This document shows positions 55,918 through 63,949 of a DNA stretch of 64,000 bases, piece after piece. Source of the DNA: Bdellovibrio svalbardensis (GTDB lineage: Bacteria > Bdellovibrionota > Bdellovibrionia > Bdellovibrionales > Bdellovibrionaceae). The stretch covers positions 62,001 to 126,000 of the forward strand of contig NZ_JANRMI010000004.1 in the NCBI RefSeq assembly GCF_029531655.1, in the 5' to 3' direction. The position numbers and the translations under genes were made by a program. The notes beneath the pieces were generated by a model. The model saw only the letters and a program-made list of their open reading frames with translations. It ran no database searches and had not been told where the DNA came from. Each line of letters opens with the position of its first letter. Position 1 is the first letter of the stretch.

Positions 55918-57165
55918 TTAGTAGGCGTAAAAGGGCGCAGAAACCCCGTTAACAGACGCGCCTTTTCCATTGATGGACGTATAAACTGACCGTCCATAGA
56001 AGAAACCCAGGCCCCAATCGAAATATCCGGTAAATACCGCGCTTAAATTAGAAAGAGCATAATTGTTACTGCTAAAGATGGAACCTGCATTAGCCACCTC
56101 AAAAGTAACAGCGTAGGACGTGCCTCCGCCAAAAGGTTTATGCGTGGCCTGCAAAGTCAGGGTTGAAGATGGACAATACCAGTCCCCATAGCACAAAGGC
56201 GTTGAAGATGTTTTTGGAAAGAACAGCCCATTCGAACCGCTATCAATAAATGAAGTCAGATTCTGGCCGTTAAAGTTCGTCACAAACAACCCCTGGCTGT
56301 CGGTGGCGATCACCTTGGTGCCGCCAGCGGGAGTATTATTTGCGCGCGTGTTGATTCCAAAAATCAAATATCCACTGGCCGTGACAGCACCCGTTGAAGG
56401 AACACTGGGTAAGATCAACACCGTCCCGTTGTTATCTGCAATTCCATCAGAATTAGAAGCCGCTGTTATCGCCGCCACCGGATTTCGCACTTGCATAGCT
56501 AATGTTGCCAAGGAATCAGTGCAGGCACTTCCATTTGAGGATCCTGCGCAGGAATAATATTTTCCATTCACAGTAGTGGCTACACAGTTTGCACCACAAT
56601 CCTGATCTCTAATTCCCACCCCCAAAATACCGTTATAGCCTGCCGAACCATTGTCAACTTCGGGGGTTCCACAAGGAGTCGCATCCGCGTATTGATCATT
56701 CAAAACCTGAATATTGACACTGGAAACGATCTCCCCACCCAAGACGACATCCGCCGTCTTGACCGGCCCCCAGTGGGCCGTGCCGTCCGCATACTTCGTG
56801 CAGTTCGCTAGTTGATTCCCACCGACATTGGTGACTTGAGTTAAATTCAATCCTGTCAATTTGCTATTGAAGACTCGAAGGCCACTGCTGCCCGTGTCCA
56901 ATAAGATATTATTCACGGTGACACAACTTCCAGTCCCATTGGTTCCCGGATTGCAGATCACAACAGACACCACTGGTTCATTCAAATAGCCCGCAGTGGT
57001 TACTTGCAGTGGAAGAACGTTATTGCCCGACATCACTGGCGAATAAGCCGCCGCACCATCTGGAAACGGATCACCCGCGCCAGCGGCATCCGCCCCTCCT
57101 CCGCCGCCGCCACTGCAACCAGCGAGGATATGAAAACCAACCATCAACAACAGTAGCTTATTCAT
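55918..57165 (-). CDS. DUF3443 lipoprotein, aspartic-protease-like
   Basis: This is a 415-residue probable lipoprotein. The signal peptide MNKLLLLMVGFHILAGC ends in a lipobox (LAGC) followed by a run of glycines. The body matches DUF3443: NNILLDTGSSGLRVFNSKL in the first half and SFIDSGSNGLFFPKT in the second, the two D-T/S-G motifs of a bilobed pepsin-like fold. YNGILGVGIRDQDCGANC adds paired cysteines. Whether it is proteolytic is untested. Its start overlaps the DUF2844 stop as ATGA, and this pair co-occurs in other proteobacteria. It ends near a weak hairpin at 55896-55916. Confidence 0.85.
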   Translation of the reverse strand: MNKLLLLMVGFHILAGCSGGGGGGADAAGAGDPFPDGAAAYSPVMSGNNVLPLQVTTAGYLNEPVVSVVICNPGTNGTGSCVTVNNILLDTGSSGLRVFNSKLTGLNLTQVTNVGGNQLANCTKYADGTAHWGPVKTADVVLGGEIVSSVNIQVLNDQYADATPCGTPEVDNGSAGYNGILGVGIRDQDCGANCVATTVNGKYYSCAGSSNGSACTDSLATLAMQVRNPVAAITAASNSDGIADNNGTVLILPSVPSTGAVTASGYLIFGINTRANNTPAGGTKVIATDSQGLFVTNFNGQNLTSFIDSGSNGLFFPKTSSTPLCYGDWYCPSSTLTLQATHKPFGGGTSYAVTFEVANAGSIFSSNNYALSNLSAVFTGYFDWGLGFFYGRSVYTSINGKGASVNGVSAPFYAY

Positions 57166-57638
57166 TTCAAGTCCTCGGCGATCAGACCCGCTGGAAGCAA
57201 TTTTGGAACATAGGCAATTCCCGTCATGGTGTCGCCAAGACTGACGCTGTTCACGACAATATTTGAAGTCTGCAATGCCATCACCCTTCGACTTCGCGTC
57301 GTGCGTGAATCTCTGACTGTTTTAAACTCAGAATAATAGACTCCAAAAATTTCAGAAAAGTTGGGAGCACTCACACCCGTCCAAGAAATTGCGAAAGTAG
57401 TCCCGTCAGCGGTCATATATTCTTTAAGCGTGCGGATTTCACTGACAGTTTCGCGAACCGTATAGGCCGCTCCCAAAGATGCTGTTTTCGCTGCGGTTGA
57501 GACTTTAAGATTGGACGAGGTCCCCGCCTTGGCCTGAACTGAAATATCACTGGCCCTTTCACCAAGAGCAGCCGCTTCGACGACATGACATGTAAATATT
57601 AATACTGCCAAGCAAAGCCAGGCGGACAGACGATTCAT
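57162..57638 (-). CDS. DUF2844 secreted protein
   Basis: This is a 158-residue exported protein. The signal peptide runs to about residue 23 (LAVLIFTCHVVEAAA). The mature domain, with TVRETVSEIRTLKEYMTADG, FAISWTGVSAPNFSEIFGVYY and MALQTSNIVVNSVSLGDTMTGIAYVPKLLP, fits DUF2844, whose role is unknown. It is translated with the DUF3443 lipoprotein (four-base overlap), so the two probably act together at the cell surface or in the periplasm. The 600 bases upstream hold no other gene. Confidence 0.8.
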   Translation of the reverse strand: MNRLSAWLCLAVLIFTCHVVEAAALGERASDISVQAKAGTSSNLKVSTAAKTASLGAAYTVRETVSEIRTLKEYMTADGTTFAISWTGVSAPNFSEIFGVYYSEFKTVRDSRTTRSRRVMALQTSNIVVNSVSLGDTMTGIAYVPKLLPAGLIAEDLK

Positions 57639-59297: not shown

Positions 59298-59341
59298 GTG
59301 TTCGAGGCCTACCGCCTCAGCTCTATTTTATGGGAGTTCCC

Positions 59342-59764
59342 GTGCGTAAGCTCAACGGCACAGTCACAATTATTGTCACGATGTTAAGCCTCTTGCTAGG
59401 TAGCCCCAACGTTCAAGCCAGTGCTCAAGCCTCGAAGTGCCATTGCACTGTGGACCCATATACGAAGACTTATGACGCCAAAGAAGGCGTGGTAAAAACA
59501 TGGTACGGTGGCAAAAGATCATGGGCCTGCACTTACACCTGCACCACACCTCAAGGTGAAGCCAAGATCATTGGCCGCCATAAAAAAACTTATGTGGGAA
59601 GCGATAATGGTCTTTGGGGAATTTGTGACGGCCTCGAGTACAAAGAAGAGTACAATATGTACAGTGGCGACTTCGTTTATATGCTCGACAGAATGGTCGG
59701 CCTCGATCCTAAAGACTCAACCTCCCCAGATCTAGTCAAATTCTCCAATGACTTCTGCCGATAG
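59342..59764 (+). CDS. Small cysteine-rich secreted protein
   Basis: I do not recognise the family. The product of about 140 residues has a signal peptide (TIIVTMLSLLLGSPNVQAS) and a mature part with six cysteines: KCHCTVDP, WACTYTCTTPQG, LWGICDG and NDFCR. Three disulfides are likely, which suits a periplasmic or extracellular protein. The GTG at 59342 has GGGAG five bases upstream and is my choice. An ATG at 59330 is closer to normal usage but lacks a ribosome site. It follows the esterase by 44 bases and precedes the pilin operon by 262 bases that contain no gene. Confidence 0.65.
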   Translation: MRKLNGTVTIIVTMLSLLLGSPNVQASAQASKCHCTVDPYTKTYDAKEGVVKTWYGGKRSWACTYTCTTPQGEAKIIGRHKKTYVGSDNGLWGICDGLEYKEEYNMYSGDFVYMLDRMVGLDPKDSTSPDLVKFSNDFCR

Positions 59765-60026: not shown

Positions 60027-60956
60027 ATGAGCACTATACGCACAGAGCAGGGCTCCGCTCTTATTTTAGTTTTAACTCTCTTAGCAGTCGCCTCTATATT
60101 CTGCGTGAGCTTCAGCAATAGCATCGTCAATATGCAAAAAAACATAGCTTACTCGAATCACAAATACGCTCGTGAATTCGAAATTTCTCAAATCATGACC
60201 CTAATTAAAGTTCAAAATGGACTGACCGAATCAAGTCAACTCACTCAAAATAGCATCTTGGCCTCTTGCTTATTCGGAACGCCGACCGCCACCTGTGCTG
60301 AAAACTGCTGCCCCCACAACTCCGCACAGGGTTTTTATTTTATCGACCCTTCAGATAACACGATCGATATAAATTCTAAAAATCGCCTAGTCGGACCGCC
60401 AGAGTCTCCGGCCTGGTATAATGCCAATAGCAGCTTATGTCAGAATTCAAATAAGGATGACTGTAGCTATGGACTGAGTGCGACCTTCGAAGCCGCCTGC
60501 CCTGGCGCCCAGCCAACTTGCCATCACGCCGAACACCTCCTCATCACCCTGCACTTACTCTCAAATCAAAATGCAAAAGGCAACTCTCAGAATATCAAAG
60601 CAAGAGATATTCCGATTATATATTTTAATAACATCAACTACCCACCCGTCGTAATGCCTGTCAGCGACCTAACTTTATCTTTGGCGGCGGGAACTGAAAA
60701 GACTGTCGACATCACGGGCTCATCAGGACACCCCTCCGAGACTCAAAACTTTATTTTCACCAAGTGCTTCAGCACGGATACGGGCATCGTGCAGATCACA
60801 AGTCCTCCGGACACACCATTTTCTAGCGGCATGGCAACAATTAAACTAAAACCTATGGCCGCGGGCACGGCACAAGTTACCTTGCAAATTAACGATGGCG
60901 GCTTAGAAAACAATACTTCAAAAGATTATACTTTCAACGTCACGGTAACTCCGTAA
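60027..60956 (+). CDS. Minor pilin-like protein (PilX/GspK-type N-terminus) with Ig-like end
   Basis: This is a 309-residue protein with one N-terminal hydrophobic helix. EQGSALILVLTLLAVASI resembles PilX/GspK-type pilins: Gly before a hydrophobic helix but no Glu at mature position 5. A region rich in cysteine follows (residues 81-165). It includes CP-x5-C at 158-165, in FEAACPGAQPTCHHAEHLLI. Residues about 205-309 form a bacterial Ig-like or cadherin-like domain ending LQINDGGLENN. Both regions are also found in the protein encoded at 63044. AAGGA lies seven bases before the ATG. It heads a three-gene pilin operon. Confidence 0.75.
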   Translation: MSTIRTEQGSALILVLTLLAVASIFCVSFSNSIVNMQKNIAYSNHKYAREFEISQIMTLIKVQNGLTESSQLTQNSILASCLFGTPTATCAENCCPHNSAQGFYFIDPSDNTIDINSKNRLVGPPESPAWYNANSSLCQNSNKDDCSYGLSATFEAACPGAQPTCHHAEHLLITLHLLSNQNAKGNSQNIKARDIPIIYFNNINYPPVVMPVSDLTLSLAAGTEKTVDITGSSGHPSETQNFIFTKCFSTDTGIVQITSPPDTPFSSGMATIKLKPMAAGTAQVTLQINDGGLENNTSKDYTFNVTVTP

Positions 60957-60966
60957 TGGAAACACT

Positions 60967-63042
60967 ATGAAAAGATTAAAACATTTAAGATCAAATAGTG
61001 GATTTACGCTGGTTGAAATACTCATCGCCCTAAGCCTATTCGGCATGTTGACGAGCGGGATCATGACTATGAATACTTGGCTCAACAACTCTGTAGCTAC
61101 GGAAGCCTCAAAAGTGGATCGTGACATTGAAAACACTGAAATGCTGAAGCTGGTCACTCAACCCCTGTATTTCGGGTCTCTTCAAGACTTTCCAGAAAAC
61201 GAACAACTTGCACAATGCATGAAAATCGACACGCGAGAGTGCAATACCGACACCGATTACAAATTAATACCATTCAATTTAACAACTAAAACAAAAATGT
61301 TTTTGGCCAGCACAACAAACGAATCTGGAAATATTAAAAATGAACTGACCTTTCGAGTTCATTGTCCAGAAAACAAAACATTCTGTGATCGCGCCTCCTA
61401 CTATACTGTCACGGTCAAAACATTTATTAACTATTTAAGCTTCAAGTCCGCATTGGTTGAAAAGAAAGGAGTGGTGACTCCAGATTTCACCAATGTCGTC
61501 ACTTACGTACCAGACAACACCGTCGCTTCCGGTCGACCAATCAACGTCGTTTTGTTTGTTGATAACTCTAACAGCATGGTCTTTGCCAAGGACCAAATCA
61601 AATCCGCGTTGGAAGCCTTATTAAACAAACTCTCCACCATGAATGTCACAGTCGGTCTGTATCCCTTAGTTACGCCATACACCTCCACGGCAAACCGATA
61701 CTATTTAGATACAAATGGAAACCAAATCACGACCATGCCCCCCTATCCGTATCCCGGCAATTTTACATACTATGAACTCTATTCAGTAGCGGGTAGTTGG
61801 CGAAACTACAAATCGTCATTCAATCCCACCTCCTACATAACGAATTATCCTGAAGGGGCAAATGCTGTATTTCCGTTTTTGACTTCGGATGATACCAGTT
61901 TAAGAACTAGCAAACTAGACTCTATGAAAAATCTCGTTGAGTCGTATTTTAATTACCCTACAACTTCATCATTGGACACTCCTCTTTGCTCCTTGATAAG
62001 ATACCTTGAGACACCACAAAGCCCTTCTCCATTTTCAATGGATCAATTTACACCTACCGCATTTTTTATAATTTCAAATGAGGACGATGAAACTGACTTC
62101 AACCTCGCCTGGTTTCAAAATGGCTCTTGCCTAAAAGGTTATTTAATGAAGTGGACCGTTTCACCAACGACCTATAATTATTGGGGCAGAAACCAACAGA
62201 AGGTATTTAACTTCTCTGCAAACGTTCTTTTGGATGGAGCTCCTGCGACCCTAAATGCTCTTTTTTCTACCAGCACATCGTATGATAGCAAATACATCAA
62301 TGGTGATTCTTGCGATGCCGATATCGCAACCATGAACTCCGCAGCAGCGGAAAAAATGATTTCTCAGACAGTAGCTACAAGCTATCCTAACTATAAATAT
62401 ATTCCAGGCAGCGGTTTTACATTAACTAAATGCCTTGTCCAAACCCCTTACTTCATAATTAAGCTGGGACTTCCCAGCCCCGATGCAACCATTTGCCCAG
62501 CCTTTGAATCTTCAAACCCACCATCTTCAAGCTACATCCCGGGATCATGCTACGAACGTTACGATAACATAGGCACGCAGGGCGGGAGCGTTCAAAGCTA
62601 TCCTCTGATGCCGGGAATTTCGAATCCCGTTGATGCCGCATACAAATCCATTCAAGATCATTTAAACTTAGCAAATGTTCTTTACATACCCATAGTACAC
62701 ACTGACGCCACGACCTGCACTCTTACTCCGGGCTCCCAAGTGGGAACCCGCTATATGGCCCTCGGCAACAAACCGGGAATCAACTCCAAACCAATACCAA
62801 TTTGCAGCCCAGACTATTCAGCACACTTAAGTAAACTTGACCAGTGGATTGCGGATTTTGCAGCCAATGATCTGCAATTGTCACCTTCCGTTGCGGCGAA
62901 CTTCAGCTCAGTCGAATTATCTCGAAATGGAGCCACGATCACTCTGACCTCGAATGTGGATTTTTCACTCGTGGGCACGACTCTTTCTTTCAAGCCAGGA
63001 ATACTCCAGCCCAACGATGTCATACGGGTTTACTTAAAGTAA
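60967..63042 (+). CDS. Prepilin fused to a von Willebrand A domain (minor-pilin adhesin)
   Basis: This is a 691-residue protein. Residues 1-40 are a type IV prepilin leader and helix: NSGFTLVEILIALSLFG, with cleavage after Gly12 and Glu at mature position 5. Residues 133-140 repeat the CP-x5-C module of its neighbours (FRVHCPENKTFCDRASYY). From about 192, PINVVLFVDNSNSM gives a MIDAS motif D-x-S-x-S at 199-203, so a metal-dependent von Willebrand A domain follows, with long Tyr/Ser-rich inserts to about 630. A small beta domain ends it (SRNGATITLTSNVDFSLVG). By comparison with pilus-tip VWA proteins such as PilY1, I infer a tip adhesin. It follows the PilX-like gene by 10 bases. Confidence 0.8.
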   Translation: MKRLKHLRSNSGFTLVEILIALSLFGMLTSGIMTMNTWLNNSVATEASKVDRDIENTEMLKLVTQPLYFGSLQDFPENEQLAQCMKIDTRECNTDTDYKLIPFNLTTKTKMFLASTTNESGNIKNELTFRVHCPENKTFCDRASYYTVTVKTFINYLSFKSALVEKKGVVTPDFTNVVTYVPDNTVASGRPINVVLFVDNSNSMVFAKDQIKSALEALLNKLSTMNVTVGLYPLVTPYTSTANRYYLDTNGNQITTMPPYPYPGNFTYYELYSVAGSWRNYKSSFNPTSYITNYPEGANAVFPFLTSDDTSLRTSKLDSMKNLVESYFNYPTTSSLDTPLCSLIRYLETPQSPSPFSMDQFTPTAFFIISNEDDETDFNLAWFQNGSCLKGYLMKWTVSPTTYNYWGRNQQKVFNFSANVLLDGAPATLNALFSTSTSYDSKYINGDSCDADIATMNSAAAEKMISQTVATSYPNYKYIPGSGFTLTKCLVQTPYFIIKLGLPSPDATICPAFESSNPPSSSYIPGSCYERYDNIGTQGGSVQSYPLMPGISNPVDAAYKSIQDHLNLANVLYIPIVHTDATTCTLTPGSQVGTRYMALGNKPGINSKPIPICSPDYSAHLSKLDQWIADFAANDLQLSPSVAANFSSVELSRNGATITLTSNVDFSLVGTTLSFKPGILQPNDVIRVYLK

Positions 63043-63043
63043 C

Positions 63044-63949
63044 ATGAACAACAAAGGCTTCACCCTTTTAGAAATTATAATATGCATAGCTCTTATGGGA
63101 GTTGTCGCATTGATCATAATGGTTCCGCAGTTGGAAATTCAAAAGCATTATAAAACAAATGAAAATAAAATATCTCGAGTTCTGGAAAACCAAAATTTAC
63201 AGCTCAAGATCACGTCTACTGATTTTTTATTAGAAAAAAGCGCGAAAGTCAGTCCTATTAACGACAGCTTATGTCCCTGCGTGATAGGCGGAAAAATGCA
63301 ATCGGGGGGAGTCAATATTTGCGTTAAGAACATATGCACCGCAAATATTGCCACAGACTTTACATTCTATGATAGCTCCGCAAATCCCCTTACAGCTTTG
63401 GCCGGGCCTACGACAGCACCTGTATACTATGACCTAATAGGCGCTCCCTGCAGTCCTGACCCAAACAAGAACATCACTTGTGCCTATCAGTCCTCCGTTA
63501 AATTCACCGCTCATTGCCCTGGAAACTTGCCATCCTGTGACCATGCAGACTACCTCGCCATAGAACTCTCACTAACGCCCGTAGGAACACAATTTTTCTC
63601 TGAAAGCAAAAAGGTATTTATCTATCCCGTCAACCTGAACTATCAACCCTTTATTGCACCAATCCCCAATCAAACTTTGCCGCTTCCCTTTGACAAAAAA
63701 ATTCCCATCAACGCAAACTCCGGCGATGCCTCTGAAAGTCAAAACTTCATTTTTGAAACTTGTAGCAGCTCTGATACGAGTATTGTTGAAATCCATTGCT
63801 ATAAATTCATTAACTCCATAGGGCAAATCATACTCACACCTAAATCCGCAGGCGTGGCCAAAATCTCCCTACAAATCAATGATGGCGGACTTGAGAACAA
63901 TCTTTCTCAAGTCTTCACTTTTGACGCCACCGCGGAATCTTCCCCGTAA
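63044..63949 (+). CDS. Prepilin-like minor pilin with CP-x5-C module and Ig-like end
   Basis: This is a 301-residue type IV prepilin: NNKGFTLLEIIICIALMGVV, cleavage after Gly5 and Glu at mature position 5. The mid region has CPCVIGG, NICVKNIC and FTAHCPGNLPSCDHADYLAI with the CP-x5-C module at 158-165, the same positions as in the PilX-like protein. The end (about 199-301, SESQNFIFETCSSSDTSIVE, then LQINDGGLENN) is an Ig-like domain paralogous to that of the first gene. It starts one base after the VWA gene's stop. With the two upstream genes it forms a set of minor pilins. The core pilus machine is not in the window. Confidence 0.78.
   Translation: MNNKGFTLLEIIICIALMGVVALIIMVPQLEIQKHYKTNENKISRVLENQNLQLKITSTDFLLEKSAKVSPINDSLCPCVIGGKMQSGGVNICVKNICTANIATDFTFYDSSANPLTALAGPTTAPVYYDLIGAPCSPDPNKNITCAYQSSVKFTAHCPGNLPSCDHADYLAIELSLTPVGTQFFSESKKVFIYPVNLNYQPFIAPIPNQTLPLPFDKKIPINANSGDASESQNFIFETCSSSDTSIVEIHCYKFINSIGQIILTPKSAGVAKISLQINDGGLENNLSQVFTFDATAESSP

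Follow-up and report, generated by a model that had tools for sequence, protein, structure and literature searches.

The window analysed here is a stretch of 64,000 nucleotides of the 3.9 Mb genome of Bdellovibrio svalbardensis (G000:C4:62001-126000), in which three consecutive genes, termed A, B and C, encode putative minor pilins. In the middle protein a pilin head is joined to a von Willebrand factor A (VWA) module, and the two outer proteins are paralogous pilins that end in an immunoglobulin (Ig)-like domain. Two further full triads are present in the same genome, at C1:880511-884524 and at C5:223137-226977 (minus strand), so that the order A-B-C is found twice and the order B-A-C once, in the C1 triad. 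An open reading frame check has confirmed both the coordinates given for the window genes in an initial annotation and the gaps of 10 and 1 bases between them. The single operon proposed there is consistent with this close spacing, but linkage is not kept everywhere, since a metagenome-assembled genome (MAG) of the Pseudobdellovibrionaceae (G085) carries an A-C pair and B on separate contigs.

The main features of the window locus are the following (a slash marks the leader cleavage site; Glu5, glutamate at mature position 5; MIDAS, metal ion-dependent adhesion site; pLDDT, predicted local distance difference test):

60027..60956, plus strand: gene A, 309 aa; class III-like leader EQG/SALIL without Glu5, pilin head and C-terminal Ig-like domain (about 190-309)
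60967..63042, plus strand: gene B, 691 aa; leader GF/TLVE and pilin head (1-160), integrin-like VWA module (about 186-691)
63044..63949, plus strand: gene C, 301 aa; prepilin KGF/TLLE with Glu5, Ig-fold domain 198-301; paralogue of A
61561..61575, plus strand: D-N-S-N-S codons (residues 199-203), MIDAS loop 1 in B; D/S/S invariant in six grafted copies
62077..62085, plus strand: N371-E372-D373 codons, MIDAS loop 3 in B; Asn at the Asp position of the free homologues
62191..62442, plus strand: inserted domain of B (residues 409-492); pLDDT 69-88, 23-33% identity between copies

In B the pilin head is fused to a VWA module of ~500 residues that includes the inserted domain and a beta-rich tail. 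Structure models were obtained with AlphaFold2, that of B from 3 sequences (pLDDT 55.6) and a second one from 2 sequences (pLDDT 50.5), their low confidence being due to the small number of sequences that went in. In the B model (pLDDT mostly <70) a helix (15-63) is followed by strands (97-180), and the consistent top matches of this low-confidence model identified a VWA fold (CMG2 VWA, Z 13.7, root-mean-square deviation 3.4, 175 residues). The two outcomes that the initial annotation had named as refuting its view, a collapsed VWA metal site and the lack of a pilin fold in the first 150 residues, were thus not encountered, the helix and strands of this model lying within the first 180 residues. 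Integrin beta headpieces were matched with a Z of about 12.8 over alignment ranges of 175-691 of B, the result to be expected if the VWA were enclosed by a hybrid-like domain made of its flanks. A Foldseek search with the same model gave the pilus adhesin SpaC as top match, with integrin beta also among the first matches, and the inserted domain was the best-predicted stretch of the model. A sequence search of solved structures yielded only weak matches, to pilin N-terminal helices.

The metal site of B had been described initially as intact, which holds for the D-x-S-x-S motif of loop 1, invariant in the six complete grafted copies, but not for a canonical MIDAS. The Thr of loop 2 is kept in four of the six grafted copies, and the S/T-D-E found in loop 3 of the free long lipoproteins is S/T/A-N-E in all the grafted ones. 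From its position after the third core strand, Asn371 of B would correspond to Asp319 of PilB from Streptococcus sanguinis, a MIDAS residue required for metal binding (PMC8179133). The VWA fold of B stands and the canonical MIDAS does not, and the loop-3 Asn might weaken or retune the site.

The VWA module has full-length homologues among the free lipobox (FQNC) proteins found in its own bacterial family (L037, profile positions 7-505 of 508, i-Evalue 1e-26 in a small database), B having a prepilin leader in place of the lipobox signal peptide. Weaker relatives of the module were found in each of the 24 genomes sampled from the genus. By its described architecture, B also resembles Bd0875 and Bd1483 of Bdellovibrio bacteriovorus, in which a D-x-S-x-S VWA is inserted in a small beta domain built from both flanks (PMC11003981), although these proteins are lipid-anchored, lack a pilin head and have about 380 aa. 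Bd0875 is a MIDAS lipoprotein that acts at the predator-prey junction, and both its loss and the mutation of its metal site disturb prey invasion (PMC11003981). When Bd0875 itself was sought among the genus matches by its published residue numbers, it was not identified.

The A and C proteins are 33% identical over their entire length (E 2e-42) and have the exact 11-mer LQINDGGLENN in common, the longest shared word in 500 shuffles being 7. A common C-terminal Ig-like domain had been proposed for them initially. For A, a weak match to Big_1 (226-303, E 0.0027) was obtained, together with leader matches to PpdB/GspK that were also weak, and the predicted model of C matched Ig-fold structures over 198-300 (Z about 10). 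As had been noted, both proteins have a cysteine module, CPG-x4-C, from residue 158 (CPGAQPTC in A and CPGNLPSC in C, 158-165 in each case), and B has a version of it, CPENKTFC, that starts at residue 133. The identical numbering in A and C, which the initial annotation had pointed out, was rejected as evidence and is a coincidence, since the module starts at 162/181 and 172/157 in the A/C proteins of the paralogous triads. The heads of B and C are distant relatives (E about 1e-6 for residues 10-150 when searched in a small database), and the CP-x5-C motif is therefore part of a real pilin-head homology. The module is shared by all three proteins but is not special to this locus, since weaker relatives of the cysteine-rich head were found in 52 of the 144 genomes of the class, often paired and with other grafted C-terminal domains. 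Two large prepilins of different families (L087:2867-5626, 919 aa, and L082:1174-3672, 832 aa) also combine a similar head with a long C-terminal part, and they end in ECFCE and QCYCE, possibly another module grafted on the same type of head.

The Pfam N_methyl cut-off was passed by B and C, and the true prepilin leader claimed for B was thus confirmed. A is a noncanonical member of the minor-pilin set, with no N_methyl match in Pfam and no Glu5, its class III leader being recognized by eye and by the weak model matches. Mature position 5 is not Glu in any of the five A copies (Leu, Leu, Tyr, Tyr and Asn; the cleavage site of the C1 copy, KRG/STLPL, was read by eye), whereas all triad B and C proteins have Glu5; the A-B-C order of the C5 triad was assigned by this rule. 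Published work gives the lack of Glu5 as a hallmark of the tip subunit with which the filament begins (PMC5207764; PMC9934059).

In phylogenetic trees, the A proteins grouped across loci and species (99/98 with four rows, 86/89 once the divergent C5 copy was included), and so did the C proteins (100/98 with four rows), among which the C5 copy was long-branched. The C4 and C1 copies were sisters in the A, B and C trees alike, and the triad was probably a unit already before the duplications. When the C4 and C1 forms of B were compared, the first VWA strands were 73% identical, the beta tail 75% and the pilin region 57-62%, as against 34% for residues 235-310, 27% for the inserted domain (409-492) and 25% for residues 493-555. 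Divergence is concentrated at 235-310 and 381-555, that is, in the loops flanking the VWA core and in the inserted domain, and the same pattern was found against the copy of a congener (G025). The scaffold and filament parts of B are conserved and its likely outer face has diverged, as interchangeable tips with different partners would do, although relaxed constraint on the loops would look similar. A sigma-28-like promoter search upstream of the sets revealed TAAA-N16-GTCGATAA before the C1 triad (L011:8528-8580; 1 mismatch, 0/300 shuffles). For the window set it gave only a borderline candidate that overlaps the gene in front, and none before the C5 or G025 sets, and these sites were not used as evidence.

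Full-length relatives of B were found in 3 of the 144 class genomes, namely the own genome, the congener G025, with one triad (order A-B-C), and the MAG G085, in which three B genes, one of them (B1) with unrelated neighbours, lie on contigs other than that of the A-C pair. Strong relatives of A and C (E below 1e-80) were present in the same three genomes and in no others of the class; co-conservation is thus observed, but not a shared linkage in G085. A scan of 369 genomes of the phylum revealed two more B carriers, G349 and G350, from another class, each with one C-like Ig pilin, which in G350 lies directly downstream of B, and B was accompanied by an Ig pilin in all five genomes. In the genomes of this other class it is B itself that lacks Glu5, with Gly instead (L159:6284-8407, L160:1138-3354, L161:9168-10633), and the tip-first role seems to have shifted between subunits. 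A profile search of genome contigs with a 3-row alignment gave no relative, and with 6 rows only one Pseudobdellovibrionaceae MAG.

The genome also contains PilT above the cut-off, further ATPases of that superfamily and a PilA-like pilin (L015). Three more minor-pilin sets (L012:3635-9415, L013:2874-8365 and L016:4845-8999) are each led by, or contain, a giant pilin-like protein (861-990 aa) without Glu5 in its leader, in addition to smaller prepilins, which makes about six alternative minor-pilin sets besides the type II secretion system (T2SS). We infer that the triads cap some type IV filament, the T4a pilus being the more likely one.

Other genes are located near the window triad. Just upstream, at 59330-59764, a small secreted-looking cysteine-rich protein of 144 aa without Pfam or NCBIfam match is encoded. 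On the minus strand, at 55918-57638, a lipoprotein-like gene (415 aa) overlaps a DUF2844 gene by 4 bases, and both resemble a two-gene surface or secreted pair.

The closest known organization is that of PilA, PilB and PilC of S. sanguinis, three co-encoded minor pilins that have been studied by experiment and proposed to form a tip complex (PMC8179133, PMC9934059). One of them lacks Glu5, another carries a VWA (MIDAS) module after the pilin head and the third carries a different grafted module, and the likeness of B to PilB is one of organization. The streptococcal trio belongs to a monoderm host with one set per genome, its PilC carries a lectin instead of an Ig domain and its PilA has no grafted domain; in the Bdellovibrionota genome there are three sets, A and C are Ig-bearing paralogues, and the VWA of B is larger, with an inserted domain, a beta tail and the loop-3 Asn. 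Modular pilins are widespread (PMC8179133), and the pilin-VWA fusion is therefore not new in kind. In a predator, the closest logic is that of KilL/M/N 1-4, the Kil Tip complexes of Myxococcus xanthus. These are a number of paralogous tip sets of three pilins each, which vary in their end domains and have been linked to prey-dependent killing, but they consist of pilins of a Tad (T4c) pilus and their end domains are, by description, unrelated and not VWA (PMC12075869). PilY1 is also a VWA protein displayed at the type IV pilus tip by minor pilins (PilV/W/X of the T4a pilus), with several clusters per genome (PMC13190605), but it is a separate non-pilin protein, whereas in the triads the VWA is fused to a pilin. 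The identification of B as a PilY1 was discarded, as B has no match to the C-terminal beta-propeller PF05567; this family gave no match in the own genome or in the 144 class genomes, and no control matched either, so an absence of PilY1 is not claimed. The T2SS pseudopilin tip GspI/GspJ/GspK is likewise a trio with one Glu5-less, tip-most member (PMC5207764), but it is devoid of VWA or Ig modules, and the T2SS set of the own genome sits elsewhere. No paper on this gene set was found in the literature searched, and what appears to be new is that a pilin of this lineage carries a lipoprotein-type MIDAS module, that its partners are paralogous Ig pilins, that the set is triplicated and that the Asn is conserved.

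Taken together, the triad proteins are probably, though by no means certainly, minor pilins that make up an adhesive tip (priming) complex on a type IV filament. The self-contained tip set suggested initially is supported by the three triads, the restriction of close A/C relatives within the class to genomes with B, the Glu5-less A and the S. sanguinis precedent, to which the protein architecture, the homology with lipoproteins and the concentrated divergence, all read from sequence, may be added. According to this model, a prepilin peptidase would cleave A, B and C at their leaders; A, proposed as tip-first (GspK/PilX-like) because it has no Glu5, would be the uppermost subunit, with B and C placed underneath and linking the complex to the shaft. 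The heads of A and C would bear the Ig-like domains, and B an integrin-beta-like headpiece (VWA plus hybrid-like beta domain) as ligand-binding effector, a module from a lipoprotein adhesin family carried on a retractile fibre rather than on a lipid anchor. Each of the three triads would provide an alternative tip, in which the loops near the metal face and the inserted domain may have diverged for different partners, most plausibly prey-surface ligands. The initial interpretation as a whole is thus supported in part, with prey recognition as a plausible role.

Several observations weigh against this model. The loop-3 Asn may weaken metal binding by B, the triad is located apart from the type IV pilus machinery genes, B is unlinked from A and C in one MAG, and confidence is low for both structure models, so that a pilin fold in the heads is supported mainly by the leader, the long helix and the strand pattern. 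In addition, full B is present in only 1 of the 23 other sampled congeners, the triad therefore not being needed for predation in general, and the predatory lifestyle of this organism follows solely from its kinship.

An unlikely alternative, but the strongest of those considered, is that the triads are tips for general surface adhesion, twitching or DNA uptake rather than for prey recognition in particular, and that the divergence of their loops reflects relaxed constraint. S. sanguinis PilB is such a general adhesin in a non-predator (PMC8179133), and both the scarcity of full B among congeners and the usually faster change of loops than of the core would fit; on the other side, the related Bd0875 works at the predator-prey junction, and the inserted domain, which the model shows as a folded unit, likewise belongs to the least conserved stretches. 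It is somewhat less likely still that the triad caps a T2SS-type pseudopilus for secretion, in which the VWA would recruit substrates or sense the channel without being an extracellular adhesin. A is GspK-like in lacking Glu5 and the same contig carries a complete T2SS at a distance of about 25-35 kb, but this cluster already has its own H, I, J and K type minor pseudopilins, surface ligands are a better match for three copies whose outer loops have diverged, and the VWA module is kin of lipobox proteins, a described relative of which acts on the cell surface (PMC11003981). That the three genes are unrelated neighbours, B being an independent VWA pilin next to an A/C Ig-pilin pair with no need for joint work, is very improbable: the separate contigs and unrelated B1 neighbours in G085 and the variable gene order would allow it, but not easily the co-occurrence of B with an Ig pilin in all five genomes, the 10- and 1-base gaps, or the retention of all three genes at three loci after duplication, with C4 and C1 as sisters for each.

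Within the tip-complex model, it can be proposed, as a rather speculative extension, that a Gram-negative predator has moved a lipoprotein-type MIDAS adhesin onto retractile pili as a self-contained tip of three pilins that replaces PilY1, and that it keeps three exchangeable forms of this tip, in which the altered (Asn) metal site and the diversified outer loops would determine which prey is gripped. Prey recognition by Bdellovibrio-type predators is poorly understood, and the triads are concrete candidates for it, with three alternative tips in a single genome that combine a diverging outer face with a conserved scaffold. One homologous module connects two adhesion strategies that have been described separately, the MIDAS lipoproteins and the modular tip pilins, and the PilABC-type trio is extended from a monoderm to a diderm lineage. 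The change of Asp to Asn offers a specific handle on metal dependence, and the three copies of the triad could lend the pili of this bacterium three different grips.

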